IMG/VR virus record: IMGVR_UViG_3300038338_000003
Coordinates: 1 to 46,746 of that record
Strand: one strand, 5' to 3'
Length of the DNA stretch: 46,746 bases
From: a virus
Of the stretch, positions 7,550 through 46,694 are shown piece by piece. A program made the translations under genes and the position numbers. Each line of letters starts with the position of its first letter. The stretch's first letter is position 1. Below the pieces are notes generated by a model, which was not told the origin of the DNA, did not search any database, and saw nothing but the letters and a program-made list of their open reading frames with translations.

Positions 7550-8034
<485 letters not shown>

Positions 8035-8038
<4 letters not shown>

Positions 8039-8415
8039 GCCTCCGCACGCTGGCAGAGAAGCACCTCGGCTTTATCTTAGAGGATAGCGCTACGGGCTTC
8101 GGCTGGCCTATTACAGTTACGGACCCCTCGGGTCTGTCCCTGCCTTTTACTGGTTACTCCGATGATATCGCGCAGGTCATCGATCCCGATACGGGGCAAG
8201 CAGTGAGCGGCAGATTAGCCTCAGTAGCGTTACGTATTTCCTCCCTCTACGAGGCGGGCATGGCGCTACCGAGAGGCATAGCGGACTCAGCGAGTAAACC
8301 GTGGGTTATAGAGTTCAATGATATAAACGGGCTCCCGTATAAGTTTAAGGTATCAGCGTCTAACCCGGATAGAGCGCTGGGTGCGCTCGTATGCCTACTG
8401 GAGGTTTACGAATGA
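8035..8415 (+). CDS. Probable head-tail connector protein
   Basis: A 126-residue mixed alpha/beta protein between the capsid and tail-terminator genes. It opens with a helix (SLRTLAEKHLGFIL), contains a bound-looking loop GFGWPITVTDPSG and a beta segment (GRLASVALRISSLYEAG), and ends with GALVCLLEVYE. Size and order fit the head-closure/connector protein found here in phages with this capsid type. No specific family was recognised. Its end carries the GGAGG ribosome site of the next gene. Confidence 0.6.
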
Positions 8416-11627: not shown

Positions 11628-13343
11628 ATGGCGGGACGTTTCAGCGTAGAAGCGGTATTTAAAGCCGTGGATAAAGTCACCGCCCCCGTAACCCGTATGC
11701 AGAATCGTGTAGGTAAAATGACGCGATCCATGGAGCGAAGCTTTAATCGTTTAAATTTGGGTGTTAAGAATTTTACCGATAACGTCAAAAAGGGAGCGAT
11801 AGCAGTTACGGCTGCACTCGCTCTTTCTACCGGCGCTATGGCTAATGTTATTAGCACGGGCGCGGAGTTCGAGCAGACGCTCGTAGCCGCCGCCGCCAAG
11901 TACCCGGGGGAGATACGTAAAGGTACAGAGGCATTTAAACAGCTCGAGGACGCCGCGCGTAAGACCGGCGCCACTACCGAATTTACCGCCAGCCAATCCG
12001 CGCAGGCCCTTAACTTTCTTGCTATGGCGGGATTCAATGCGGAGAACTCCATATCCGCGCTACCGGCCGTCGTCGATCTGGCTACCGCCGCGCAGGTAGA
12101 CCTGGCCACCGCTACGGATATCGCCACCGATGCGCTCGGAGCGTTCGGGCTCTCAACCAAAGACCCGGCAAAACTTACCAAAAACCTCGCACGCGTTAAC
12201 GATGTACTCGCGAAGACCGCGACCACGGCTAATACCACGATAGAGCAGTTATTCGAATCCATGAAAAAAGCCGGGCCGGTAGCTACCACGGCGGGGGCCA
12301 GTATCGAAACTGTGGCCGCACTTATGGGTACCATGGCCAACTCTGGTATTAAGGCCGAGAAAGCCGGCACCGCGGTCGCTAATATGTTCCTTAATCTAAC
12401 CACCCCGTCCTCCAAGGCCGCTAAAGTTATGCGTAAGCTACGCGTGAACGTGCTGGACGCTAATAACCAGATGCGAGACGTCCCCGATATTCTCGGCGAT
12501 CTTAATAAAGCTATCGCCCCGCTTACGAAAGCGCAACGGCTTAGCGTGCTGGAGAGCATCTTCGGGCGCGAGGGTCTCGCAGGCGTGGCTACCGTTGTAG
12601 AGGGTGGCGCGGATGCGTTTAAGGCGTACCGTAAACAGCTCGAGGGCGCGACTGGAGCGTCGGGTACGATGGCCTCCGTAATGCGCGACACGCTGCAGGG
12701 CCGCTTAAATTCTCTTAAATCCGCTGTAGAGGGGGTAAAGATATCTATTTTCTCCATGACGGAGGGGCCGCTATCGGATGTAATCGTACGTATGACGGAC
12801 TGGGTGCGTGCTAACGAGGATCTTATCGCCTCTAAAATCGGCGGCTTTTTGGCACTCGTTTTAAACAACCTTGATGCTATCGGGTCCGCGCTCCTCGCCA
12901 TAGGTAAAGGCGTGGCCGCGGTTATCGCGCTTGGAATAGCGCTTAAGACGGTATCCGCCGTGCTCGGTATTATCAATCTTATCATGATGGCTAACCCTAT
13001 CGTGCTCGGTATTATGGCCGCTGTAGCTGCGGTAGCGTTACTGTCCGGAAAGCTTGACCCCGTACTCGAGATCATAAAGAGTATAGGCAGCGGTATCTCC
13101 GATGCGTTTAGCGCCGTTGGATCTCTCGGGGCTATCTTCGGTATGGGCGACGACGAAGACAAGAAAGCGCAGGCCGCAGTACCGCAGATGGTAAGTCCGC
13201 AGGATAGGGTAGCGAGAAGCGTCCAGGAGAGCCGTACCACCTCTACCGCAGAAGTCACGATCCGCGACGAGACCGGCCGCGCGGAAGTGACGGGCGGTAA
13301 GCTCGGAGGCGGTCTCGCCTTAGAGAAAACAGGAGCTCTATAA
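11628..13343 (+). CDS. Tail tape measure protein (Mu gp42-like)
   Basis: A 571-residue tape measure protein that sets tail length. Residues 1-60 are basic and helical; residues 75-350 match the PhageMin tail tape-measure core (GAEFEQTLVAAAAKYPG, GATTEFTASQSAQALNFLAM, SIFGREGLAGVATVV). Hydrophobic segments at about 405-470 (AIGSALLAIGKGVAAVIALG, VLGIMAAVAAVALL) could insert in the host membrane during DNA entry. The C terminus is polar with a Gly-rich tail. The ribosome site is GGAGGTG. Its length predicts a fairly short tail. The next start overlaps its last base. Confidence 0.93.
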   Translation: MAGRFSVEAVFKAVDKVTAPVTRMQNRVGKMTRSMERSFNRLNLGVKNFTDNVKKGAIAVTAALALSTGAMANVISTGAEFEQTLVAAAAKYPGEIRKGTEAFKQLEDAARKTGATTEFTASQSAQALNFLAMAGFNAENSISALPAVVDLATAAQVDLATATDIATDALGAFGLSTKDPAKLTKNLARVNDVLAKTATTANTTIEQLFESMKKAGPVATTAGASIETVAALMGTMANSGIKAEKAGTAVANMFLNLTTPSSKAAKVMRKLRVNVLDANNQMRDVPDILGDLNKAIAPLTKAQRLSVLESIFGREGLAGVATVVEGGADAFKAYRKQLEGATGASGTMASVMRDTLQGRLNSLKSAVEGVKISIFSMTEGPLSDVIVRMTDWVRANEDLIASKIGGFLALVLNNLDAIGSALLAIGKGVAAVIALGIALKTVSAVLGIINLIMMANPIVLGIMAAVAAVALLSGKLDPVLEIIKSIGSGISDAFSAVGSLGAIFGMGDDEDKKAQAAVPQMVSPQDRVARSVQESRTTSTAEVTIRDETGRAEVTGGKLGGGLALEKTGAL

Positions 13344-14563
13344 TGGCGTGGAATGATCGAATAAGAGAAGCGGCCTACACGTCGCCCTCCGGCACGCGTA
13401 TACGTTTCGACTACGAGAACGTTAACAAATCCGTGGATAAGAAGACCACCGCTTTTGAGTTCCCGGACGCGGACGGTACATACGTGCAAGACCTAGGCCA
13501 CACGGGTAGACGGTACCCGCTCCGTATATTTTTCTGGGGCGACGAGTACGACACTCTGTCCGATGCGTTCGAGGCGGCGCTATTAGAGCGTGGTACCGGC
13601 GTACTGGAGCACCCAGTGTACGGCGTTATAAATGTCGTACCCTTCGGCACCATAACGCGCCGTGACGATCTTAAGACCGCGGCTAACCAGGCTATTCTGG
13701 ACGTAGCGTTCTGGGAGACCGTGGGGTTAGTATACCCGTCCACTCAAAACGACCCGGCCAGCGAGGTACTTACCGCCGTATCGGATTATAACGTGGCCGC
13801 CTCGGAAGAGTTCGCGACGGTAACCGATCTGGACTCTGCTGTAGAGAAAGCTACTTTTGAGGGCGGCTATACGGCGCTACTCGATCAGGCCGCAGGGGGG
13901 CTATCGTCTATCGCGGATACGCAGGACGATGTACGTATGCAGTTTAACGCCGTGCTGGATTCTATAAACCAGGGCACAGACGTACTGATAGCGGACCCGC
14001 TCTCGCTCGCGTTTCAAACAGCGATATTACTACAGGCTCCCGCTCGAGCGCAGACCAGCATAACGGCCAGACTCTCGGCGTACTCTGATCTCTCCGACAG
14101 CATTACCGCCAGTGTGGGCGCTATGGACAGTAACGAATTCCACGCTAAAGATCTTTACGCGTCCACGTATTTAACGGGGGCGATAGTATCCGTAGTTAAT
14201 AATACTTTCGATACGAAGTCCGACGCGCTCGCCGCTGCCGAAGCTACTCTCGCGCAACTGGAAGCAGTAACCGACTGGCGGGACGACAGCTTCGCGGAGC
14301 TATCCGAGATCGATACGGGCGCCGCGTATCAGCAGCTACAGAACGCCGCCGCGCTCGCCGCCGGGTTCTTAGTGGAGATATCTTTCTCTTTAAAGCAGGA
14401 GCGCAGCGTGGTACTGGACCGTGCGCGGACGATCATCGATTTAACGGCAGAGCTTTACGGAAGTGTGGACGATAAACTCGATTTCCTAATAGACTCCAAT
14501 AATCTAAGCGGATCTGAAATACTAGAGCTGCCGGAAGGTCGCGAAATTGTCTACTACATATAG
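13343..14563 (+). CDS. Mu gpN-like tail/DNA circularisation protein
   Basis: A 406-residue protein. The N-terminal 125 residues match the DNA-circularisation protein N-terminal family (WNDRIREAAYTSPSGTRI, then HTGRRYPLRIFFWGDEYD and DVAFWET), found in Mu gpN and relatives. In virions this is a baseplate hub-associated distal tube protein. The rest is helical with repeated Ala-rich coils and less conserved. It ends inside the start of the gp44-like gene (17-base overlap). Confidence 0.9.
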   Translation: MAWNDRIREAAYTSPSGTRIRFDYENVNKSVDKKTTAFEFPDADGTYVQDLGHTGRRYPLRIFFWGDEYDTLSDAFEAALLERGTGVLEHPVYGVINVVPFGTITRRDDLKTAANQAILDVAFWETVGLVYPSTQNDPASEVLTAVSDYNVAASEEFATVTDLDSAVEKATFEGGYTALLDQAAGGLSSIADTQDDVRMQFNAVLDSINQGTDVLIADPLSLAFQTAILLQAPARAQTSITARLSAYSDLSDSITASVGAMDSNEFHAKDLYASTYLTGAIVSVVNNTFDTKSDALAAAEATLAQLEAVTDWRDDSFAELSEIDTGAAYQQLQNAAALAAGFLVEISFSLKQERSVVLDRARTIIDLTAELYGSVDDKLDFLIDSNNLSGSEILELPEGREIVYYI

Positions 14564-24811: not shown

Positions 24812-27013
24812 TTAATCCTTCCGATACCGTTTACCGCGCCAGCCGCCCGCCGCTTTAACGGGCCAGTCCGCAGCCCATGGCGGAAGCGTGGCCATAATAG
24901 CCTCGAACTCGTCTACCGACCCTACGCCCTCCGGCACCTCGCTCACCACCTCATCGTGGATATGTAGCACGATAGGATAGCCTGCGGCTTCTAAACGAGG
25001 CATAGCGTACGTAAGGATATCCCGAGCGGTGGCCTGTACGACGTTCTCGCATAGTTTCCCGCCGTAGGTCTCGAGCCTCGCCCATTGATTCGTATAAGAG
25101 TCGCGGCCCTCGTAAGTGATCTTTAAAACGTCTTTACCCCACGGTGTGCGGTCGGGGTGCAGACGCGGACGGTGGTAGCTGAGAGTGCGGCCGCTTAGCA
25201 GTTGGCAGTACAGCACATCATCTTTTACGCCGTAGGTGATACCGCGGTACCCGTAACAGGCCCCCGGCGCTTGGATCGCAGAGAGTGCCGCGTCCTCGAG
25301 ACCACGCCAGAAAGCGACGATAGCGGGTGACTCGTCGCGCCAGCGTTTGATACTGTCTTTGATCTCCTCTTCGCTGAGGTGCTTATCCGCGCCGAAGTTC
25401 TTCCACGCCCCGAGACCCCCCTGGTAGCCGGAAGCGAGCTCCGCTACCTTTCCGATCTTTTTACGCATAGGGTGGTGGTCCCCCGTGGTCTCTTTATGAG
25501 ATACGAACTCCTCGAACGGTATCCCCGTGATCTTCGCGGCGGACATTTCGTAAATCTTGCCGTGGGTTTTAAATACGTCAATACGCCACTGTTCGCCCGC
25601 CAGTTCCGCAAGGACGACCGCCTCAATAGCGGAGTAGTCGGAGCATATAAGATCGTGCCCCGGAGCCGCGCTAAAGAGTCCGCGCAGACAGCCGGATACG
25701 GCGGCTACCGCGTCCCCGAAGTAATACTCTACAGTGCGGAGATCACGTGTGGCTATCACCTGCAGCGCGTCCTCTACCGCTTCGATACTCCACTCTATGT
25801 CATCACCGTTAAACACATCGTCCGCGCGGCACCATGGGCACGCATTAGAGGTATTAACGTAGCGCTTACCGCATTCGCGGCATAAACGTACCGCTGGTCC
25901 CGAGTTCGGTAGGTTTTGTGGCTGCGGTCCGCGGCCGGCGAAGCGCCCAGTACGATCCGCCCCGCAGAACGCGAAGAGATCTTTAAGTCTACCGTCCGCT
26001 GATACACGTCGTGTCATGGCGAATAACTTTTTAACGCTCGCGGACCCGATTAACGCGCGTATCTCCAGAACGCGACGGGCTACGGGGGCTAAGTCCTCAC
26101 GCTCTAGCGCTGAGGTAACAGTACTCTCCTGCATGTTTGGGAGATGTATTCCGCCGGATAGTGCTAAAAATGCGATTATCCTCTCGCCCTGGTTCGCGCT
26201 GGTTATAGCACCTCCGGTTAATCCGTGTAATTCGGCCAGATACCGCTCGAAGGCTTGCTCCACGATGGCCTTACACCCAGCCAGAGACTCCGCGTCAATG
26301 TGGACGCCGCGTAGGTTTATCTGCTGGTCCAGTAACCACAGCTCTAGCTCTTCGGGGCTTAAGTCCGGTATGCGCCGGGATACGGCCGCCTCCGCTGCGA
26401 TATCCCCGATACAGTACCGATACAACTCCATAGCGTCCCTCGGGTCTTCCTCTGGACGTATGCGGCGGCGCGGGTCTTTTTTAGTTTCACTGCGCGGTTT
26501 ACTGAATTTATCTATAAGGCGCTTACCGTCGTCTATTTTTTGATCCTCGACCTGGAGAACCGTAGCGGCGTTACCCAGCGCTCCGGGTAATGAATGTGCG
26601 CGGGATTTAGCCATAGCATCACGTAACTGCTGGAACGGGAGCGGGGGCCAGCCCATACGACGGTGGCAAACGTTTTCCCAGATATGCCACTCGAAAGCGC
26701 TATTCCACGCCTCCAGCAGTCCGCCGTTAGCGATATGGTCGAAGAGCTCAGCGGGCGGTGCCATTCCCGGTATCCACAGTCTTTTACCTAGACCATCTTT
26801 AAGGTCATATGCGAGGCATAGCACCTCCGTGGTCGGGTGCTCGGAGTAAACCGCTGCACCCACGGCTTCTATGCTGGACTTCCCCTTTAGCACAGGAATG
26901 CGTTTACCCTCGGGCGTGATCACGTATCCCGCCTCGGAGTACGTCTCGAAGTCCATATCCGGCAGGACCGTAGCGTAACCGGTGCCTACCGGTATTTTGG
27001 TATGTGCCAACAT
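24812..27013 (-). CDS. DNA polymerase, family A (Pol I type)
   Basis: A 733-residue replicative polymerase with proofreading. The 3'-5' exonuclease start is DFETYS at 21-26, with NSAFEWHIW near 104 and a further Asp region at about 197-204. Polymerase motif A is SDYSAIEAVVLAEL (458-471), motif B is RKKIGKVAELASGYQGG (517-533), and motif C is HIHDEVV (684-690). A zinc-ribbon insertion (CRECGKRYVN to CPWC, 378-395) sits between the exonuclease and palm parts. Metal-binding residues all look intact. Its ATG overlaps the previous stop (ATGA). Confidence 0.96.
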   Translation of the reverse strand: MLAHTKIPVGTGYATVLPDMDFETYSEAGYVITPEGKRIPVLKGKSSIEAVGAAVYSEHPTTEVLCLAYDLKDGLGKRLWIPGMAPPAELFDHIANGGLLEAWNSAFEWHIWENVCHRRMGWPPLPFQQLRDAMAKSRAHSLPGALGNAATVLQVEDQKIDDGKRLIDKFSKPRSETKKDPRRRIRPEEDPRDAMELYRYCIGDIAAEAAVSRRIPDLSPEELELWLLDQQINLRGVHIDAESLAGCKAIVEQAFERYLAELHGLTGGAITSANQGERIIAFLALSGGIHLPNMQESTVTSALEREDLAPVARRVLEIRALIGSASVKKLFAMTRRVSADGRLKDLFAFCGADRTGRFAGRGPQPQNLPNSGPAVRLCRECGKRYVNTSNACPWCRADDVFNGDDIEWSIEAVEDALQVIATRDLRTVEYYFGDAVAAVSGCLRGLFSAAPGHDLICSDYSAIEAVVLAELAGEQWRIDVFKTHGKIYEMSAAKITGIPFEEFVSHKETTGDHHPMRKKIGKVAELASGYQGGLGAWKNFGADKHLSEEEIKDSIKRWRDESPAIVAFWRGLEDAALSAIQAPGACYGYRGITYGVKDDVLYCQLLSGRTLSYHRPRLHPDRTPWGKDVLKITYEGRDSYTNQWARLETYGGKLCENVVQATARDILTYAMPRLEAAGYPIVLHIHDEVVSEVPEGVGSVDEFEAIMATLPPWAADWPVKAAGGWRGKRYRKD

Positions 27014-29043: not shown

Positions 29044-30197
29044 TGGAAAACCTTTTTAGCTTTTTTATTATCCGCCTGGGTAAGTTTAAGCCCCGCGGAT
29101 GGTCTCTCGCTGTAAGCCGATATAACGGCTTCATCGATACCTTTATCTTTAGCCTGTTTTGGTGTGATCGCCTGCGCAGGCTTACGTAGATCCACGCCTA
29201 TGAGATCGCCGAGCGCCAGGACTTCGCCCGTAGGTTTGGCCCACTTCTCGCGACCGTAGGACGGCTCCAGCGACCAGCCCGCTACCGATTTACCGGAGCG
29301 GATCATCCCTTTAGCCTGCTCCTCGTAGCCTGTCTCCAGATACTCGAGCTGTTTTCTAGCGCGTTTCACGATAGCGAGCTGTACGCCGAGCGCCTCCGCC
29401 GAAAGCTCTACCGGGGTAGGCATAGCGGCGGCTTCAAATAACTGAATACCCGCGGTAAGCGCCGCGGTACACGCGTGGCGTGCGGTACAGTGCTTACAGT
29501 GCTCACCGGATCGCGTCGGGGCGTTCGGCCCCAGAGCTATCGCGGCGTTATTGCTAAGAGTATTAAAATACCCTCGAAGATCTGGGGCTTTTACCGCCCA
29601 CTCACGGACCGCGCCGTCGCCGCTGTAAGCGCGAGGCTGTACGATACGCATACGGACGGTTATATGCTGATCCGTGTAACCGTCGATACCGTGCTCTTCG
29701 AGAAGACCAGCCACGTAGTTTATAAGCTGCCAGTTTTCGAACTCGTCGACGACACCGTGACCGTGCTTAAAATCCCAGACGATAAGCTCTCTATCGTAGT
29801 ATAGGTACTGGTCCACGGTGCCGAATGATAGCGCGTGGATGCTTTTAGCTTCTACGGGGTGCTCCGAAGCGTGGATACAGCCGGGGCGGGCTTTTATCTC
29901 CCGTACCACATCGTTAGCATACGTCCACGCGCTATCAAAGATCTCATCCGTGATGATCACGCCGTTATCGGCGGGAGTGTCGATGTACTCGCTACGGACG
30001 GACTCTGGTACCGTTTCAGGCGTTGACACCCCGCGGGCGATAAGACGCTCTCCGAGCCCATGTGCGGCCGTCCCTTCCCGCGACTCTTCCGTCTCCTCTG
30101 TCTGGGGGTAGAGCTGGGCCATAAGCACCCAGCCGGGGCAACCGTTAGGCGCCCCCCAGATATGAGCCGACGACGGCGGGATTATAGAGTGTGACAC
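29040..30197 (-). CDS. DUF2800 protein, PD-(D/E)XK nuclease-like
   Basis: A 385-residue protein of the DUF2800 family, related to Cas4/RecB-type nucleases. Conserved parts: GTAAHGLGERLI near 44, FGTVDQYLYYDRELIVWDFK near 125-143 with the catalytic-type Asp and K, and a C-terminal Cys cluster (CKHCTARHACT at about 233-243) for a metal or Fe-S site. It is normally found next to DUF2815 and polymerase and is thought to take part in recombination or end processing. Start 30197 overlaps nothing; GTG/ATG spacing to the gene upstream is one base. Confidence 0.85.
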   Translation of the reverse strand: MSHSIIPPSSAHIWGAPNGCPGWVLMAQLYPQTEETEESREGTAAHGLGERLIARGVSTPETVPESVRSEYIDTPADNGVIITDEIFDSAWTYANDVVREIKARPGCIHASEHPVEAKSIHALSFGTVDQYLYYDRELIVWDFKHGHGVVDEFENWQLINYVAGLLEEHGIDGYTDQHITVRMRIVQPRAYSGDGAVREWAVKAPDLRGYFNTLSNNAAIALGPNAPTRSGEHCKHCTARHACTAALTAGIQLFEAAAMPTPVELSAEALGVQLAIVKRARKQLEYLETGYEEQAKGMIRSGKSVAGWSLEPSYGREKWAKPTGEVLALGDLIGVDLRKPAQAITPKQAKDKGIDEAVISAYSERPSAGLKLTQADNKKAKKVFQ

Positions 30198-34598: not shown

Positions 34599-35068
34599 CA
34601 CTCGAACAATGGGCGATTAAGCACGCGATACCCTACGCGGCGGTGCATGAACTACGCGCTATCTTCGGAGCGGTCAATACCGACCCGTCACCGCAGGACG
34701 GCGAGAGCGAAGCGGCAGTCCAGACCCGCGTACGTCTCGAAGCGAGCGCTAAAGGGTGCCGGCTCTTACGTAATAACGTCGGAGTGCTGTACGACGAGCG
34801 GGGGGTGCCTGTGCGCTACGGTCTGGCGAACGACTCTAAGCAGATGAATGATCACATTAAATCGAGTGATCTTATAGGTATCCGGCCGTTACTTATACAG
34901 CCGTATCACGTCGGTAGCGTTCTGGGGCAGTTTATGGCACGGGAGATTAAACCGGGGGCGTGGTCGTACAGCGGAACGGCCCGAGAAGTGGCGCAGCTGC
35001 GCTTTATGGAGCTCGTTGTGTCGATGGGCGGCGACGCGTGCTTCGCAAACGGAGAGGGGACGATATAA
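34595..35068 (+). CDS. VRR-NUC domain nuclease
   Basis: A 157-residue nuclease-type protein. The pattern LRNNVGVLYDERGVPVRYGL, then HIKSSDLIGIRPLLIQ and FMAREIKPGAWSYSGTAREV, fits the VRR-NUC fold, where Glu of the AREIK strand and the Asp of SSDLIG act at the metal site. Such phage proteins may resolve branched DNA or cut host DNA. ATG overlaps the previous stop. Confidence 0.82.
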   Translation: MTLEQWAIKHAIPYAAVHELRAIFGAVNTDPSPQDGESEAAVQTRVRLEASAKGCRLLRNNVGVLYDERGVPVRYGLANDSKQMNDHIKSSDLIGIRPLLIQPYHVGSVLGQFMAREIKPGAWSYSGTAREVAQLRFMELVVSMGGDACFANGEGTI

Positions 35069-35838
35069 TGGATATTAACACGGAAAACGCGCGGCTTATG
35101 TTCGGGGATTGTTTAGAGGTTATGGATGAGCTTATAGCGGAGGGCGTAGTGGTGGGCGCTATTATCTGCGATCCGCCGTACGGTACGACCGCCTGTAAGT
35201 GGGATAACGTTATAGACTTTGATAAGATGTGGCGGAGGCTGGATAGGCTTATAAAACCTAACGGGGCGATAGTTCTCTTTGGTAGTGAGCCTTTTAGTAG
35301 TGCTTTGAGAATGAGTAACATTAGTATGTTTAAATATGATCATATATGGATTCACAATAGAAGTTCAAATTTCGCACAAGCTCCATATCGACCACTTGGA
35401 ATGCACGAAAACGTATCTGTATTTTCAAATGGAGGAAACTCAAAAAACGCAAAATTAAGAATGTCATACTACCCACAAGGGCTTATAAAATTAAAAGAAA
35501 AGAAAATTTGCAAAGCAACAAGGTTAAACGGAAGAGCACATAGGAGCTCAAAAGCAGTTCAAAAGGACTATGTTCAAGAGTATACAAACTACCCGAATAA
35601 TATCTTGGAATATAAAAAAGAAAGTGCTAGATTTCACCCAACTCAAAAACCAGTAGCCCTTATGGAGTATCTAATAAAGACATACACAAATGAAGATGAG
35701 TTAGTTTTAGACTTCACTATGGGCTCCGGCACTACTGGCGTGGCCGCGTGTAACCTCGGGCGTAAGTTCATAGGTATAGAGTTGGGTGCGAAGTATTACG
35801 GGATCGCGTGCGGGAGGGTAATAGATGCAGACACGTAA
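35068..35838 (+). CDS. DNA methyltransferase, amino type (N6-A/N4-C), mosaic
   Basis: A 256-residue beta-class methyltransferase. The catalytic motif IV is DPPYGT (35-40); motif X/I lies at the C-terminal end (RFHPTQKPVALMEYLI, then LDFTMGSGTTGVAAC) for SAM binding. ATG at 35068 overlaps the previous stop (TAATG). Bases 35285-35715 switch to AT-rich codon use (poly-A-rich, host-like), while both ends match the phage, suggesting that the target-recognition domain was replaced. Confidence 0.9.
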   Translation: MDINTENARLMFGDCLEVMDELIAEGVVVGAIICDPPYGTTACKWDNVIDFDKMWRRLDRLIKPNGAIVLFGSEPFSSALRMSNISMFKYDHIWIHNRSSNFAQAPYRPLGMHENVSVFSNGGNSKNAKLRMSYYPQGLIKLKEKKICKATRLNGRAHRSSKAVQKDYVQEYTNYPNNILEYKKESARFHPTQKPVALMEYLIKTYTNEDELVLDFTMGSGTTGVAACNLGRKFIGIELGAKYYGIACGRVIDADT

Positions 35839-36091: not shown

Positions 36092-36592
36092 ATGGATAAG
36101 AAAACATCAATAGAACGTGCAGCGAGCGAGCTTATCGCTGAGATCGGTATTATAAATATGACTCGTAAGGGCCTCTGCGAACGTGCTGGCGTACCGGACG
36201 GATCGTTCCCGTATGTAATGGGGTGTACCTTTACGGATTTTATTGATAAGCTCGAGGGCGGGGACGCGATCTTTAAGACAAGTAAGAAACGCGTAAGCCC
36301 TAAACTACGTACTAAAGCGATTATCCGCGCGGCGCTCGAAGTCGCCAAAGAGCACGGGTACGCCAAGATCACGCGGGAGGACGTAGCGGATAATGCCGGC
36401 GTGTCTCTCGGTCTGATTACGCATTACTTCGGTACTATGCCGCAGTTACGCCGCGCCGTTATGCGTGCGGCTGTATCCCAGGAGATACTCGAGGTAATAG
36501 CGCAGGGCCTCGCTAACGGTGACGACCACGCTAAGAAAGCTCCGCAGGACTTGAAGATTAAAGCTGTAGCAGCACTCGCTAACGAGTTGTAG
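36092..36592 (+). CDS. Tandem TetR-type HTH regulator
   Basis: A 166-residue protein with two TetR_N-like helix-turn-helix units in one chain and no ligand domain. Unit 1 is about 7-50 (ASELIAEIGIINMTRKGL, ERAGVPDGSFPYVMG). Unit 2 is about 75-120 (RAALEVAKEHGYAKITRED, DNAGVSLGLITHYFGTM), the closer match to the family. ATG at 36092 with AAGGA ten bases before; an upstream in-frame TTG lies in the promoter. It could bind asymmetric or doubled operators, perhaps its own promoter. A regulatory role is inferred. Confidence 0.78.
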   Translation: MDKKTSIERAASELIAEIGIINMTRKGLCERAGVPDGSFPYVMGCTFTDFIDKLEGGDAIFKTSKKRVSPKLRTKAIIRAALEVAKEHGYAKITREDVADNAGVSLGLITHYFGTMPQLRRAVMRAAVSQEILEVIAQGLANGDDHAKKAPQDLKIKAVAALANEL

Positions 36593-36593
36593 T

Positions 36594-39245
36594 ATGACTA
36601 CGCTACCAGAAGCGTTACGCCCGCTCGCGGCGTTCGATCAATTCGTATTGTGGACCACCTCGGTACGGGACGGGAAACTCGTAAAACAGCCGATAGACCA
36701 CCGTACCGCGTCGGTAGCTGATGCGCACGACCCAGGCGCGTGGCTATCGGCTGATGAGGCTTGCAGCATTGCGACAGCATACGGGGACAGCTACGGGGTG
36801 GGGTTCGTGTTCACGGCGGATGACCCTTTCTTTTTCTTCGACATAGATAATTGTTTGCTACCGAGCGGCGAGTGGTCCCCCATAGCTATGGAACTCATGG
36901 GGAGATTTCAAGGTGCCGCGGTAGAGGTGTCGCAGTCCGGGCGCGGGTTGCATATAATCGGCGTCGGGACCCCCACTACGCCCTCGTCTGGCAGACGAAA
37001 AAAGGCGGTAGACCCCCTAACAAAAAGTACGTCTGACTTATTCGACCTGTATACGGAGCTCCGTTTCGTCGCGTTGACGGGCTTCTCAGCGCTCGGGTCC
37101 GCCGGGCACGCAGTGGATCAGTCCCAACTCGATTACGTAACGGGCCACTGGCTTAAAATAGACAGCGACCACACGGTGGAGTGGACTGCGGAGCCCGTAA
37201 ACGGGTATACCGGCCCGGAGGACGATGACGAGCTTATCTCCCGCGCCCTCGCACGCAAGAGTGCGGCCTCAGTATTTAATAAAAGCGTTTCATTTCAGGA
37301 TCTATGGGAGTGCAACGAGGACGCGTTCGAGGGGGTGTATATAGACGACCAGGGGCGTAACCCGTACGACCGTAGCTCTGTAGATGCGGCTTTCGCTCAA
37401 CATTTAGCGTTCTGGACGGGTAAGAACTGCGAGCGTATGCTCCGTATTATGAAACGCTCCGGGCTCGTGCGTGATAAATGGGACCGGGAGGACTATCTGG
37501 AGCGCACGATCCTGAAAGCGGTATCTATGCAGAAAGAGGTATACTCTACGGCTCCGGCCGATACGGCCGCTGCGGATAGCGTGGGCGCGTGCAAACTGAG
37601 AGGGTCGGACGCGCAGGTAAAATATGCTGATAACGTCCGTGCGCTTAAGCTGTCGGAGTGTAAAGCTAACGAGGCGCTATCCCTCCAGCTCGCGAAAGTT
37701 CAGTCCGCTAAGTTCTGGATAGACAATAAAGACAAGACCCCCGAAGAGCTCGGCGCTATGATCACCCCCGTAGAGTCCGCAGCCGATCCGCTCGGGTGCC
37801 CTGTCGCAGGCCCCCAGGTCGTCGCCGGCTTTCAGTACCTCGGCGCTACTCAGCAGGTAGAGCATTTTAAGGGGTGCATGTATGTGCAGGATGTACACCG
37901 CGTGCTTACCCCCAGAGGTACCATGCTTAAAACGGAGCAGTTTAACGCTACGTACGGCGGGTATAGCTTTCAGCTGGACGATAGCGGCGATAAGACCACG
38001 CGCAAAGCGTGGGAGGCGTTTACAGAGTCGCAGATCCTACGTTACCCGAAGGCCGAGTCTACGTGCTTTAGACCGGAGCACGGTTTCGGGGAGGTACTGG
38101 GGGAGGACGGCTTCTCCCTGGTGAATACCTATCTACCTATTAACACCCCCGCCATAGCCGGCGATCCGTCCAAGTTTACGGGGCTTATCTCTAAACTACT
38201 CCCCGACGAGAGAGACCGCCGCATACTGTTAACGTACATCGCCGCGCTCGTCCAGAATCCGGGGCGTAAATTCCAGTGGTGGCCTGTGCTGCAGGGAACG
38301 GAGGGGAACGGTAAGACCGCAATAGTGAGCGCTATAACGTACGCGGTAGGCTCCAGATACACGCACTGCCCCAATGTGGACGAGATCTCCAAGAGTGGAA
38401 ATAAGTTTAACGGCTGGATACGCGGTAGACTTTTCGTAGGCATGGAGGAGGTATACGTGGCTAACCGCCGCGACTTCCTAGAGGCATTTAAGACCACGGT
38501 TACGAACGACCGACTACCGATAGAGTCTAAAGGCGTTGACCAGATAATGGGTGATAACCGCGCGAATGGCATCATGTGTACGAATCATAAAGAGGGCGTC
38601 CCGATCACGATAGACGGGCGCCGTTACTGTGTTTTCTTTACCGCGCAGCAGAGTAAAGCGGATAGGGTACGTGACGGTATGGGTGGTAGATACTTCCCGG
38701 ACCTATACGACTGGCTTAACGGCCGGGGAGAGTACGCGTCAATGGGCGAGAACTACGGATTTAAAGTTGTTAACCACTACCTTAAGACGTACGAGCTGTG
38801 CGAAGAGTTCAACCCGGCGGGAGCGTGCCAGGAGGCGCCGGTAACGAGTAGCACTAAAGACGCTGTGCAGGCTTCCCTCGGCGGCGTTGAGCAGGAGATC
38901 CTGGAAGCTATCGCCGAAGGTCGCCCGGGCTTCGCTAACGGTTGGGTGTCCTCCGTGGCGGTAGAGAGACTACTGGACGGTATGCGTATGGCACGATCGA
39001 TAGCACACAATAAACGCCGTGAGCTGCTACAGTCGCTCGGGTACGACTGGCACCCGGCGTTGCGGGACGGGCGCGTTAATAATCCTATCCCTATGGACGA
39101 GAACAAAAAGCCGAGACTGTTTATAAAGGTCGGGCATGTAAACGCTAATATAGCATCCCCGGCGGACGTCGCTAAGACGTACCAGGACGATCAGGGGGCG
39201 GGCGTAACGTCCACGGGTCAAGCAGCGGAGGTGTTTAATGCCTAG
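36594..39245 (+). CDS. Primase-helicase, P4/D5 type
   Basis: An 883-residue fusion. The N-terminal AEP-like primase part has FFFFDIDN (about 79-86) with acidic metal ligands and GRGLHIIG near 119. The C-terminal part is an SF3/D5-type helicase with Walker A GTEGNGKT at about 568, MEEVYV and the later Asn motif DNRANGIMCTNHKEG. A C-terminal domain follows. It should start replication and unwind DNA, working with the polymerase at 24812. Begins one base after the TetR-like stop, so both share a transcript. Confidence 0.93.
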   Translation: MTTLPEALRPLAAFDQFVLWTTSVRDGKLVKQPIDHRTASVADAHDPGAWLSADEACSIATAYGDSYGVGFVFTADDPFFFFDIDNCLLPSGEWSPIAMELMGRFQGAAVEVSQSGRGLHIIGVGTPTTPSSGRRKKAVDPLTKSTSDLFDLYTELRFVALTGFSALGSAGHAVDQSQLDYVTGHWLKIDSDHTVEWTAEPVNGYTGPEDDDELISRALARKSAASVFNKSVSFQDLWECNEDAFEGVYIDDQGRNPYDRSSVDAAFAQHLAFWTGKNCERMLRIMKRSGLVRDKWDREDYLERTILKAVSMQKEVYSTAPADTAAADSVGACKLRGSDAQVKYADNVRALKLSECKANEALSLQLAKVQSAKFWIDNKDKTPEELGAMITPVESAADPLGCPVAGPQVVAGFQYLGATQQVEHFKGCMYVQDVHRVLTPRGTMLKTEQFNATYGGYSFQLDDSGDKTTRKAWEAFTESQILRYPKAESTCFRPEHGFGEVLGEDGFSLVNTYLPINTPAIAGDPSKFTGLISKLLPDERDRRILLTYIAALVQNPGRKFQWWPVLQGTEGNGKTAIVSAITYAVGSRYTHCPNVDEISKSGNKFNGWIRGRLFVGMEEVYVANRRDFLEAFKTTVTNDRLPIESKGVDQIMGDNRANGIMCTNHKEGVPITIDGRRYCVFFTAQQSKADRVRDGMGGRYFPDLYDWLNGRGEYASMGENYGFKVVNHYLKTYELCEEFNPAGACQEAPVTSSTKDAVQASLGGVEQEILEAIAEGRPGFANGWVSSVAVERLLDGMRMARSIAHNKRRELLQSLGYDWHPALRDGRVNNPIPMDENKKPRLFIKVGHVNANIASPADVAKTYQDDQGAGVTSTGQAAEVFNA

Positions 39246-39342
39246 CGTTACGTGCACTTGCCCTCGATGTGGCGGCCCCGCTACGTGTTCTTCCGCTGGG
39301 CGCCTGTGGTGCTCTAACTGTAAATACGGTACCGGAAAATGA
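39238..39342 (+). CDS. 34-residue zinc-ribbon microprotein
   Basis: Starts eight bases inside the primase end and shares ATGA with the next gene. MPSVTCTCPRCGGPATCS then SAGRLWCSNCKYGTGK: six Cys, with CPRC and CSNC knuckles 17 residues apart, the pattern of a zinc ribbon. GGAGG lies about nine bases before the ATG. Could be a small nucleic-acid or protein-binding partner of the PP-loop protein next to it. Function unknown. Confidence 0.7.
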   Translation: MPSVTCTCPRCGGPATCSSAGRLWCSNCKYGTGK

Positions 39343-40169
39343 AAGATATAATCGTATCTTTCAGTGGTGGGGCTACGAGCGGATTTATGTGCAAATGGCT
39401 TATAGATAATATGTCGCATGTATTTAACTTACACTTCGTTTACGCGAATACGGGGCAGGAGCATGAAAATACGCTTAAATTCGTCGACCAGTGCGATAAA
39501 GCTTTCGGGCTAAATCTAACGTGGGTGGAGGCTGTAGTGCGCCACGGTGTTAGAAAAGCCTCCGGGTGTCGCATAGTCGATTTTAAAACGGCGGATCGCA
39601 GGGGGCGGGTGTTCGAAGATATGATCTCTAAATACGGTATCCCTAATAAAACATACCCGCATTGTACCAGAGAATTAAAAATACACCCTATGCGGGCGTG
39701 GGCGGAGTCCCAAGGGTTAAAGGGTGCCACGTTTGCGCTCGGTATCCGCGCAGACGAACCCAAACGTATAAAACGCGGAAACGGCAAACTGTACCCCTTA
39801 GTAGACCTAGTGAGCGTCACTAAAGAGGACGTGCTGGAGTGGTGGGGTAAACAACCGTTTAAATTGGACCTCCCCGAGCATTTAGGTAACTGTACATGGT
39901 GCTGGAAAAAGTCCTTACGTAAACTGTTAACTATTACTGCCGACCACCCCGAGATCATGGAGTTCCCTCTATTTATGGAGGCTAAATACGGCCACATAAC
40001 TACAAACGCGGATATATGCGAACGCCGCGTATTCTTTAGAGAGACGCGATCCACAGCGGATATAATAAATATGGCTAACGGGGATTTCGACCCGTTTGTG
40101 GACCTTAATTATGAGGACTGCGCGGAAGAGTGCGGGAGCGTGTTTCCAGATGAGATTCATAGTAGCTAA
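39339..40169 (+). CDS. PP-loop ATPase, PAPS-reductase-like
   Basis: A 276-residue adenine-nucleotide alpha-hydrolase-fold protein. The PP-loop is SFSGGATSG at 7-15 (SGGxxS). Further family marks are VYANTGQEHENT, PHCTRELK, LGIRADEPKRI and GNCTWCWKKS, whose CxxC may bind metal. Such genes are common in phages, where the substrate is unknown; sulfur handling, queuosine-like or DNA modification have been proposed. Standing beside two methyltransferases it could belong to a DNA-modification set. Confidence 0.82.
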   Translation: MKDIIVSFSGGATSGFMCKWLIDNMSHVFNLHFVYANTGQEHENTLKFVDQCDKAFGLNLTWVEAVVRHGVRKASGCRIVDFKTADRRGRVFEDMISKYGIPNKTYPHCTRELKIHPMRAWAESQGLKGATFALGIRADEPKRIKRGNGKLYPLVDLVSVTKEDVLEWWGKQPFKLDLPEHLGNCTWCWKKSLRKLLTITADHPEIMEFPLFMEAKYGHITTNADICERRVFFRETRSTADIINMANGDFDPFVDLNYEDCAEECGSVFPDEIHSS

Positions 40170-45476: not shown

Positions 45477-45669
45477 TTTAGCTCCTTTTTAGTAATCTGG
45501 GAGCGTCAGCCGTAGCGCACTCCAACTCTCTGTATATCCCAAATTGTAGACAAGTAGACATTAATTACAGCTTAATTACTTCGTGTTAGTAGCAATTTGC
45601 AGTTAGAAGTAGTGTTTATAGCTACTTGCGGTTACCAATCGCTTACAATAGGAAGTAAAACGGGTAAAA

Positions 45670-45944
45670 TACCCCGCATTTTCAAAACTGTACGGGGTGC
45701 CTTGAAACCCCCTATTTCAGGGGTCTGTGGCGGGTCGTACCCCGCACCCCGTACCAGCCGCTATTTCTCCCAGACTACCCGTGGCACCCACGGGGGTAAC
45801 TGTATACCCTATATATGTATACATTCTCTATTACTCTAATATAGAGAAGTACGGGGTATACGGGGTATAGGGTGGTGTAGAGCCCTATTTTAGGGGGTTT
45901 CAAGACACCCCGTACCGCTGGGTAATCGAGGGGTATGCGGGGTA
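45670..45944. repeat. Eight-copy iteron TRCGGGGTR
   Basis: Nine-base sites on both strands: minus at 45670-45678, 45738-45746, 45745-45753, 45906-45914; plus at 45691-45699, 45850-45858, 45859-45867, 45936-45944. Three flavours occur (TACGGGGTA, TACGGGGTG, TGCGGGGTA). Two pairs are in direct contact or overlap. Confidence 0.85.
45690..45915. repeat. Long-range inverted repeat, 25-base arms
   Basis: Arms 45690-45714 and 45891-45915 are inverted copies (24 of 25 bases; the motif runs from GTACGGGGTG through CTTGAAACCCCCTA). They enclose 176 bases including the AT-rich core, and each arm holds one iteron. Confidence 0.85.
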
Positions 45945-45956
45945 TCGGCACCTGTG

Positions 45957-45965
45957 TGGTATCAT
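45957..45965 (+). promoter_or_regulatory. Extended -10 promoter
   Basis: TGGTATCAT, the TGnTATAAT type with one mismatch, 25 bases before the ATG at 45990. No -35 is seen. Same class as those at 1644 and 22229. Confidence 0.55.
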
Positions 45966-45989
45966 TAGGCTAAACAGGAGGGCGGACCG

Positions 45990-46694
45990 ATGTTTAGTGT
46001 GGATGCAAGCAACGTTAAGAAGTACGAGCGGGATCTTAAGGTGTTCGCTAAGCGGGCGTACCCGTTCGCTACAAAGACTACTGTTAATCGTGCGGCGTTT
46101 GATGCACAGCGTAACGCCCGCGAAGGTGTGCGGGATGATATGGTGCTCCGTAATCGTTTCACGGTGCAGAGTGTACAGGTGGGCCAGACGCGTACGCTGC
46201 AGGTCTCACGGCAGCGGGCTCTCGTCGGGTCTTCCGCTGAGTACATGGCGGACCAGGAGTTCGGCGCTATTAAAGCGAAGCGGGGAAAAGAGGGCGTATC
46301 GATAGCTACGGGCTACTCAGCAGGGCAGCAGGGCGAGCAACCGCGTACGCGCCTACCGCGTAAGGCTAACAAGATGGCCAATATACAGCTGCAGCGACGA
46401 CGTAAGCGTGGTGGTACGAAACGGCAGCAGAATCTAATAGCAATCAAAGAGGCGGCGAAGAGCGGGCGTAAGTACGTGTTCCTGGACCTTGGGAGGAGTA
46501 AGGGTATCTTCAAGGTGATCGGCGGCGCGAGACGCCCTAAGATCAAGATGGTGCATGACCTTACGAGAGATAGCGTAGTGATCCCGCGTAACCCGTGGCT
46601 AGCTCCAGCGGTACGTAAGACGGAGGATAAGATACCTAAGTTCTACGAGGAGGCGCTCGTCTTCCAGCTTAAGCGTCGCGGACTGTTTGACTAG
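45990..46694 (+). CDS. Minor tail / tail completion protein, gpZ-like
   Basis: A 234-residue strongly basic protein of the 'prophage minor tail protein Z' group: an N-terminal helix (VKKYERDLKVFAKRAYPF), the conserved TTVNRAAFDAQRNAREGV and RNRFTVQSVQVGQTRTL, then a middle with EYMADQEFGA. The GPZ family joins or completes the tail. Finding it before the terminase rather than in the tail cluster is unusual. AGGAGGG precedes ATG. It is the first gene of the late unit seen here, and the small terminase should follow beyond the edge. Confidence 0.75.
   Translation: MFSVDASNVKKYERDLKVFAKRAYPFATKTTVNRAAFDAQRNAREGVRDDMVLRNRFTVQSVQVGQTRTLQVSRQRALVGSSAEYMADQEFGAIKAKRGKEGVSIATGYSAGQQGEQPRTRLPRKANKMANIQLQRRRKRGGTKRQQNLIAIKEAAKSGRKYVFLDLGRSKGIFKVIGGARRPKIKMVHDLTRDSVVIPRNPWLAPAVRKTEDKIPKFYEEALVFQLKRRGLFD

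Follow-up and report, generated by a model that had tools for sequence, protein, structure and literature searches.

Origins of the SaPI Rep helicases consist of iterons that are recognised by the C-terminal domain of the helicase (PMC7581432), and in P4 alpha a winged helix binds the origin repeats (PMC4234260). Proteins that combine a PrimPol domain, an SF3 helicase and a winged helix, such as pRN1 ORF904 and those of BPP-1/BIP-1-type phages, have instead been proposed to assemble on stem-loops, and their origins are said to lack iterons (PMC4234260). For the primase-polymerase of phage NrS-1, a pair of single recognition sites has been proposed as the origin (PMC7102993); the enzyme also primes at GTGG/GTGA (PMC8718748), sites that are too common to discriminate.

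Here, we analysed a stretch of 46,746 nucleotides (the window), which is the nearly complete contig of an uncultured, tailed phage that is virulent and myophage-like. Its left part encodes TerL, portal, capsid, sheath and tape measure, and its right part DNA polymerase (the phage's own, 24812-27013), exonuclease, single-strand binding protein, helicase and primase. Dense CAGACG/GACGCA coding repeats occur at 7573-8100, close to the gene that follows the one for the major capsid protein, and a similar repeat word is found at about 4.9 kb in Scuro. Close to the right end, a repeat-rich element is flanked by leftward genes on one side and by a rightward neck/minor tail protein gene on the other (45990-46694, plus strand; phrog_4688, E = 1.4e-65), so that transcription diverges around it, as an earlier note on this DNA had stated.

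The anatomy given in the earlier note, eight copies of TRCGGGGTR on both strands, a 25-base inverted repeat and an AT-rich segment with its own hairpin, was borne out. Eight exact copies of TRCGGGGTR lie within 45670-45944 (275 bp) and only two elsewhere in the 46.7 kb, at 29853 and 36792; 2000 dinucleotide shuffles of 45477-45989 contained 0.064 copies on average and two at most. The left group comprises iteron 1 (45670-45678, minus strand; TGCGGGGTA), iteron 2 (45691-45699, plus; TACGGGGTG), iteron 3 (45738-45746, minus; TGCGGGGTA) and, 7 bp from the latter, iteron 4 (45745-45753, minus; TACGGGGTG), the member of this group closest to the core. On the right, iterons 5 and 6 (45850-45858 and 45859-45867, both plus; TACGGGGTA) form a tandem 9-bp pair that adjoins the core and is conserved as AGGGGTATANGGGGTATA; it is followed by iteron 7 (45906-45914, minus; TACGGGGTG), which belongs to a conserved CACCCCGNA column block in the alignment described below, and by iteron 8 (45936-45944, plus; TGCGGGGTA). 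The core-adjacent iterons face outward: on the left of the core, 45738 and 45745 are minus-strand copies, and on its right 45850 and 45859 are plus-strand copies. Between them, the core (45800-45850; 73% AT), a candidate duplex-unwinding element, folds into a pair of hairpins, one at 45801-45823 and one at 45824-45848 (z = -3.3). The inverted arms (45690-45714, plus; 45891-45915, minus) are complementary at 24 of 25 positions, and a looser match extends to 58 nt. The extent of 45477-45989 that had been assigned to the region holds in part: the element proper spans about 45669-45944, and 45477-45668 lies outside it. An AT-rich segment with several short repeats gathered around it in one place is the arrangement of an iteron origin, and, judged from sequence, the element is very probably the place where the phage begins to copy its DNA.

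Dozens of related phages share the core repeat. In relatives, the same slot holds an AT-rich core that lies between inverted iteron groups and adjoins a tandem pair of 7-10 bp. In an alignment of 16 copies, from environmental phages, Shewanella phage SppYZU01, Klebsiella phage KpV79 and Acinetobacter phage LAPP1, four features recur: C-rich iterons on the left, a stretch rich in AT, a tandem pair of the AGGGGTATA type, and the CACCCCGNA block. What was seen to be conserved in the core is its AT-richness, the hairpins being described in the window alone. The closest relative, L029, retains all eight iteron sites, and its arms are complementary at 20 of 25 positions compared to 24 of 25 in the window. 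As every mismatch lies outside the iteron word, what is conserved is the iterons rather than the arms. The element also differs in this respect from a pRN1-type origin, a structure-conserved stem-loop of about 100 bp without iterons, in that iterons are present and flank an AT-rich core. Some relatives, SppYZU01 among them, have degenerate iteron copies only, a point against the origin reading. In Scuro, the element is located upstream of the small terminase gene, and it occurs twice, 5' of the small terminase gene and 5' of the neck gene, in KpV79 and LAPP1; the paired copies lie at L098:1-180 and 13300-13659 and at L099:120-447 and 34860-35200. In L206 (13130-13320), the iteron groups are flanked by long CTCTAT tandem runs.

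The candidate initiator is an NrS-1-type primase-polymerase/SF3 helicase of 883 aa (36594-39245, plus strand), beside which lies a phosphoadenosine phosphosulfate reductase-like gene (39339-40169). The protein matches the Pfam families NrS-1 HBD (E = 1.9e-20) and DUF5906 (E = 1.2e-16) as well as, by sequence search, PDB chains of NrS-1 (E = 8e-23 for the PrimPol and 2e-4 for the helicase part), and Foldseek returned NrS-1 N300 and CTR and the SaPI5 primase-helicase. Like the NrS-1 enzyme, it comprises a PrimPol domain, the helix-bundle domain and an SF3 helicase. The binding protein had been suspected to be new; it probably belongs to this known family instead. AlphaFold2, run on the full-length primase with 27 sequences (mean pLDDT 85.7), predicts a C-terminal winged helix of canonical fold (residues 764-845; 38883-39128, plus strand; pLDDT about 84-93), which is the candidate iteron reader and whose helix 3 and wing are strongly conserved (NKRRELL..LGYDWHPAL..GRVNN). 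An earlier structural model, of only the C-terminal fragment, was discarded (pLDDT 51). The protein thus has its own SF3 helicase by sequence and fold, and a C-terminal DNA-binding domain by prediction only.

This combination resembles the SaPI Rep/iteron system, in which short iterons go together with a self-loading helicase carrying a C-terminal origin-binding domain (predicted in the window protein). SaPI5 PriRep1, which the window primase matches by Foldseek and by sequence, also unites primase and helicase in one protein. The iteron word and the host range differ, however, and SaPI is a satellite whereas the window represents a virulent phage. In addition, the SaPI origin lies directly 3' of the rep gene, whereas 6.4 kb separate the element from the primase gene, a distance that counts against the origin model. 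We therefore regard the element as working like a SaPI or P4 origin but do not class it as a SaPI replicon, because it is not beside the initiator gene. In L186, the element is near the primase gene, and in VapE/D5-type relatives the iterons lie upstream of it. P4 alpha has a primase, an SF3 helicase and a C-terminal winged helix (predicted for the window protein) as well (PMC4234260), but its primase is of the TOPRIM type and that of the window an archaeo-eukaryotic PrimPol. With pRN1 ORF904 and the BPP-1/BIP-1-type proteins, the window protein shares PrimPol, SF3 helicase and (predicted) winged helix in one polypeptide. The genome of NrS-1 itself has no GGGGTA cluster and no matching array, which also counts against the origin model, and the reported 8-nt priming site of NrS-1, TTTGGTTA, is absent from the window.

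We then asked whether the iteron word goes with the family of the primase, scoring as a cluster at least four GGGGTA per 320 bp; an unfiltered k-mer scan had been set aside as coding repeats dominated its output. Clusters were present at 46 of the 106 loci with the window's NrS-1-type primase-helicase family (18/31 in a first set, which includes L061, a locus without a demonstrated primase, and 28/75 in a further set), and at none of the 23 loci with a VapE/D5-type primase. Fisher's test gives 1.6e-5, which serves as a guide only since it ignores kinship among loci: the counted loci are related to each other, some are one contig cut differently, and many are short. Two results speak against the model. 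More than half of the NrS-1-type loci stay below the threshold, many of them short or without the slot, and among the genome-contig relatives 21 of 22 have fewer than four GGGGTA, the remaining one merely equalling its own shuffles.

Like the window group, VapE/D5-type phages have the tail gene, and their small terminase is homologous to that of this group, yet they carry other words in the equivalent place, namely GTGCCCC or GTGCAC (VP16-like phages), TTTGTAGTT, TTGTCACAC, TGTGACGTT or AAGTGGTCA. In L107, about nine telomere-like GTTAGG repeats lie among AAGTGGTCA iterons some 330 bp upstream of the primase gene. The primase-helicases of VP16T (L025), VP16C (L023) and PY6 (L020) are annotated as putative integrase; the two that we checked, of VP16T and PY6, have Prim-Pol, PriCT_2 and VapE-like domains. 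Between the two primase groups, a profile comparison of the C-terminal domains gave no homology. SppYZU01 and Scuro differ in their iterons from VP16T and 367.14, although the small terminases of all four are homologous. Conversely, GGGGTA is kept in KpV79, L181, L185, L186, L201 and L203 despite another small-terminase family, without detectable similarity to that of SppYZU01. As far as these sequence comparisons go, the iteron word tracks the replication protein and not the neighbouring genes, which supports the proposal of the earlier note that an initiator reads an origin here.

Its other proposal, a packaging site (cosB/pac) to which the small terminase would bind, is very unlikely in the light of the same comparison, since the iteron word does not track the small-terminase family. 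The element does lie close to the right end of the genome, and a small-terminase-like gene directly follows it in L181, L186, L201, L203 and L206. However, in about nine relatives the contig ends on the right at or near the same motif, GGTACTGT...GATTCNNCCG, 60-220 bp (mostly about 100 bp) past the tail gene, and SppYZU01 has this motif between the tail gene and the small terminase gene. These ends place cos about 0.8 kb away from the iterons and beyond the right end of the window, which does not extend that far and in which the start of TerL is also missing. Taken together, the element does not behave as a cos or pac site, which would lie at the genome end and follow the small terminase. Independent contigs (L032, L036, L037, L041-L044, L046 and L058) terminate at the cos-like motif AAGGTACTGT...GTTTTGATTCNNCCG, which is also conserved in SppYZU01 (L015; 2188-2364); in VP16-like phages AGGTTCTTCC replaces it.

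Within one phage, the two bases before GGGGTA tend to match across copies (TT in L186, TC in L185, AC in L181 and AG in L204). Between the Vibrio phages 367.14 (L101) and 97.13 (L102), whose primases are 96% identical, all iterons changed in concert from TTGTTG to TTGTAG, with otherwise similar flanks. In the PrimPol motif loop of the 367.14 primase, a local stretch, KGVTRQQV, is oddly replaced by KVGAASKNEI. This loop (62-73) was rejected as iteron reader: it differs between the two phages, but is of ordinary sequence in L064, which has the same TGTTG iteron. One C-terminal residue covaries with the iteron (G with TGTTG, mostly S with TGTAG), which is suggestive only, as it concerns two contrasts and L072 and L105 have R. 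In the NrS-1-type group, no clear pattern of covariation was seen between flanking iteron bases and winged-helix residues. We consider it improbable that phages with PrimPol-SF3-winged-helix replication proteins hold private, mutually exclusive origin-initiator pairs with homogenised iteron words, with GGGGTA also serving as the template for de novo starts by PrimPol in the NrS-1-type branch.

Anatomy, conservation and an iteron word that tracks the primase family are what we obtained here as the basis of the origin model, and we regard it as likely that 45669-45944 is a replication origin whose iterons are read by the NrS-1-type primase-helicase through its predicted winged helix, the domain type that P4 alpha employs, SaPI Rep likewise using its C-terminal domain. 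The same origin may instead be read by a TetR_N-like helix-turn-helix protein encoded directly 5' of the primase (36092-36592, plus strand; Pfam TetR_N, E = 1.5e-14), which would then act like lambda O or RepC in loading the primase-helicase. The TetR_N fold is a DNA-binding one, and a homologue directly precedes the primase at 93 of 100 relatives' loci, so that the primase and the regulator, which the earlier note had named as partners, do form a conserved module. On the other hand, 97.13, from the other primase group, lacks a small HTH_17 gene beside its primase and yet has intact iterons, the HTH_17 wing IKLGPRTTRV recurs (by eye) among phages with differing iterons, and the SaPI and P4 precedents rely on the helicase's own C-terminal domain. 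The TetR-like protein and the winged helix are equally well conserved with the primase, which counts against the winged-helix model; sequence does not separate the two, and we keep the TetR_N-like reader as a live, although less probable, alternative.

Alternatively, the iterons might be operators through which a transcription regulator controls the tail gene and the early genes that diverge from it. Transcription diverges at the element, and GTGTGGTATCAT (45954-45965, plus strand) is a candidate promoter of the extended -10 type for the tail gene. Its conserved form, GTGTGGTATTAT, 15 bp past the last iteron, is retained just 5' of the gene in most element copies upstream of the tail gene. No -35 box was seen for it, and a sigma-70 consensus scan gave one match, equal to chance expectation, and did not detect 45954-45965. 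The two copies in KpV79 and LAPP1, each 5' of a late gene, also fit such a late/early control region and count against the origin model. A promoter would not, however, require an AT-rich core with symmetric iteron groups, the arrays of L186 and L185 lie near other genes with no tail gene nearby, and the iteron word follows the primase family; we therefore hold this reading to be improbable. GC skew, proposed as a check, was favourable in the window, where the detrended minimum falls at 45843 inside the core, and in SppYZU01 (1331, inside the element). As the minima of Scuro, KpV79, LAPP1 and VP16T are not in the element, the skew mainly reports gene orientation and is uninformative about the origin.

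In the origin model that we prefer, the primase-polymerase/SF3 helicase (36594-39245) would bind the GGGGTA iterons with its predicted C-terminal winged helix and assemble on the inverted iteron groups at both sides of the AT-rich core. It would then open the core at 45800-45850, load as helicase rings and prime DNA synthesis, which the phage DNA polymerase would continue, with replication probably proceeding in both directions from the element.

In the literature that we searched, we found no iteron origin for NrS-1-type phages, which does not prove its absence. No origin has been established for NrS-1-type primases, which have been studied in vitro, and the element supplies a candidate. A conserved iteron origin would contrast with the stem-loops proposed for PrimPol-SF3-winged-helix proteins (PMC4234260). 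If the reading as private pairs were true, phages with such proteins would form a large class, each with its own iteron word. The natural variants, together with the swap of primase class at one genomic slot, make origin recognition directly testable, and Jedunavirus-like phages, as well as many uncultured ones, may gain candidate origins from the element.
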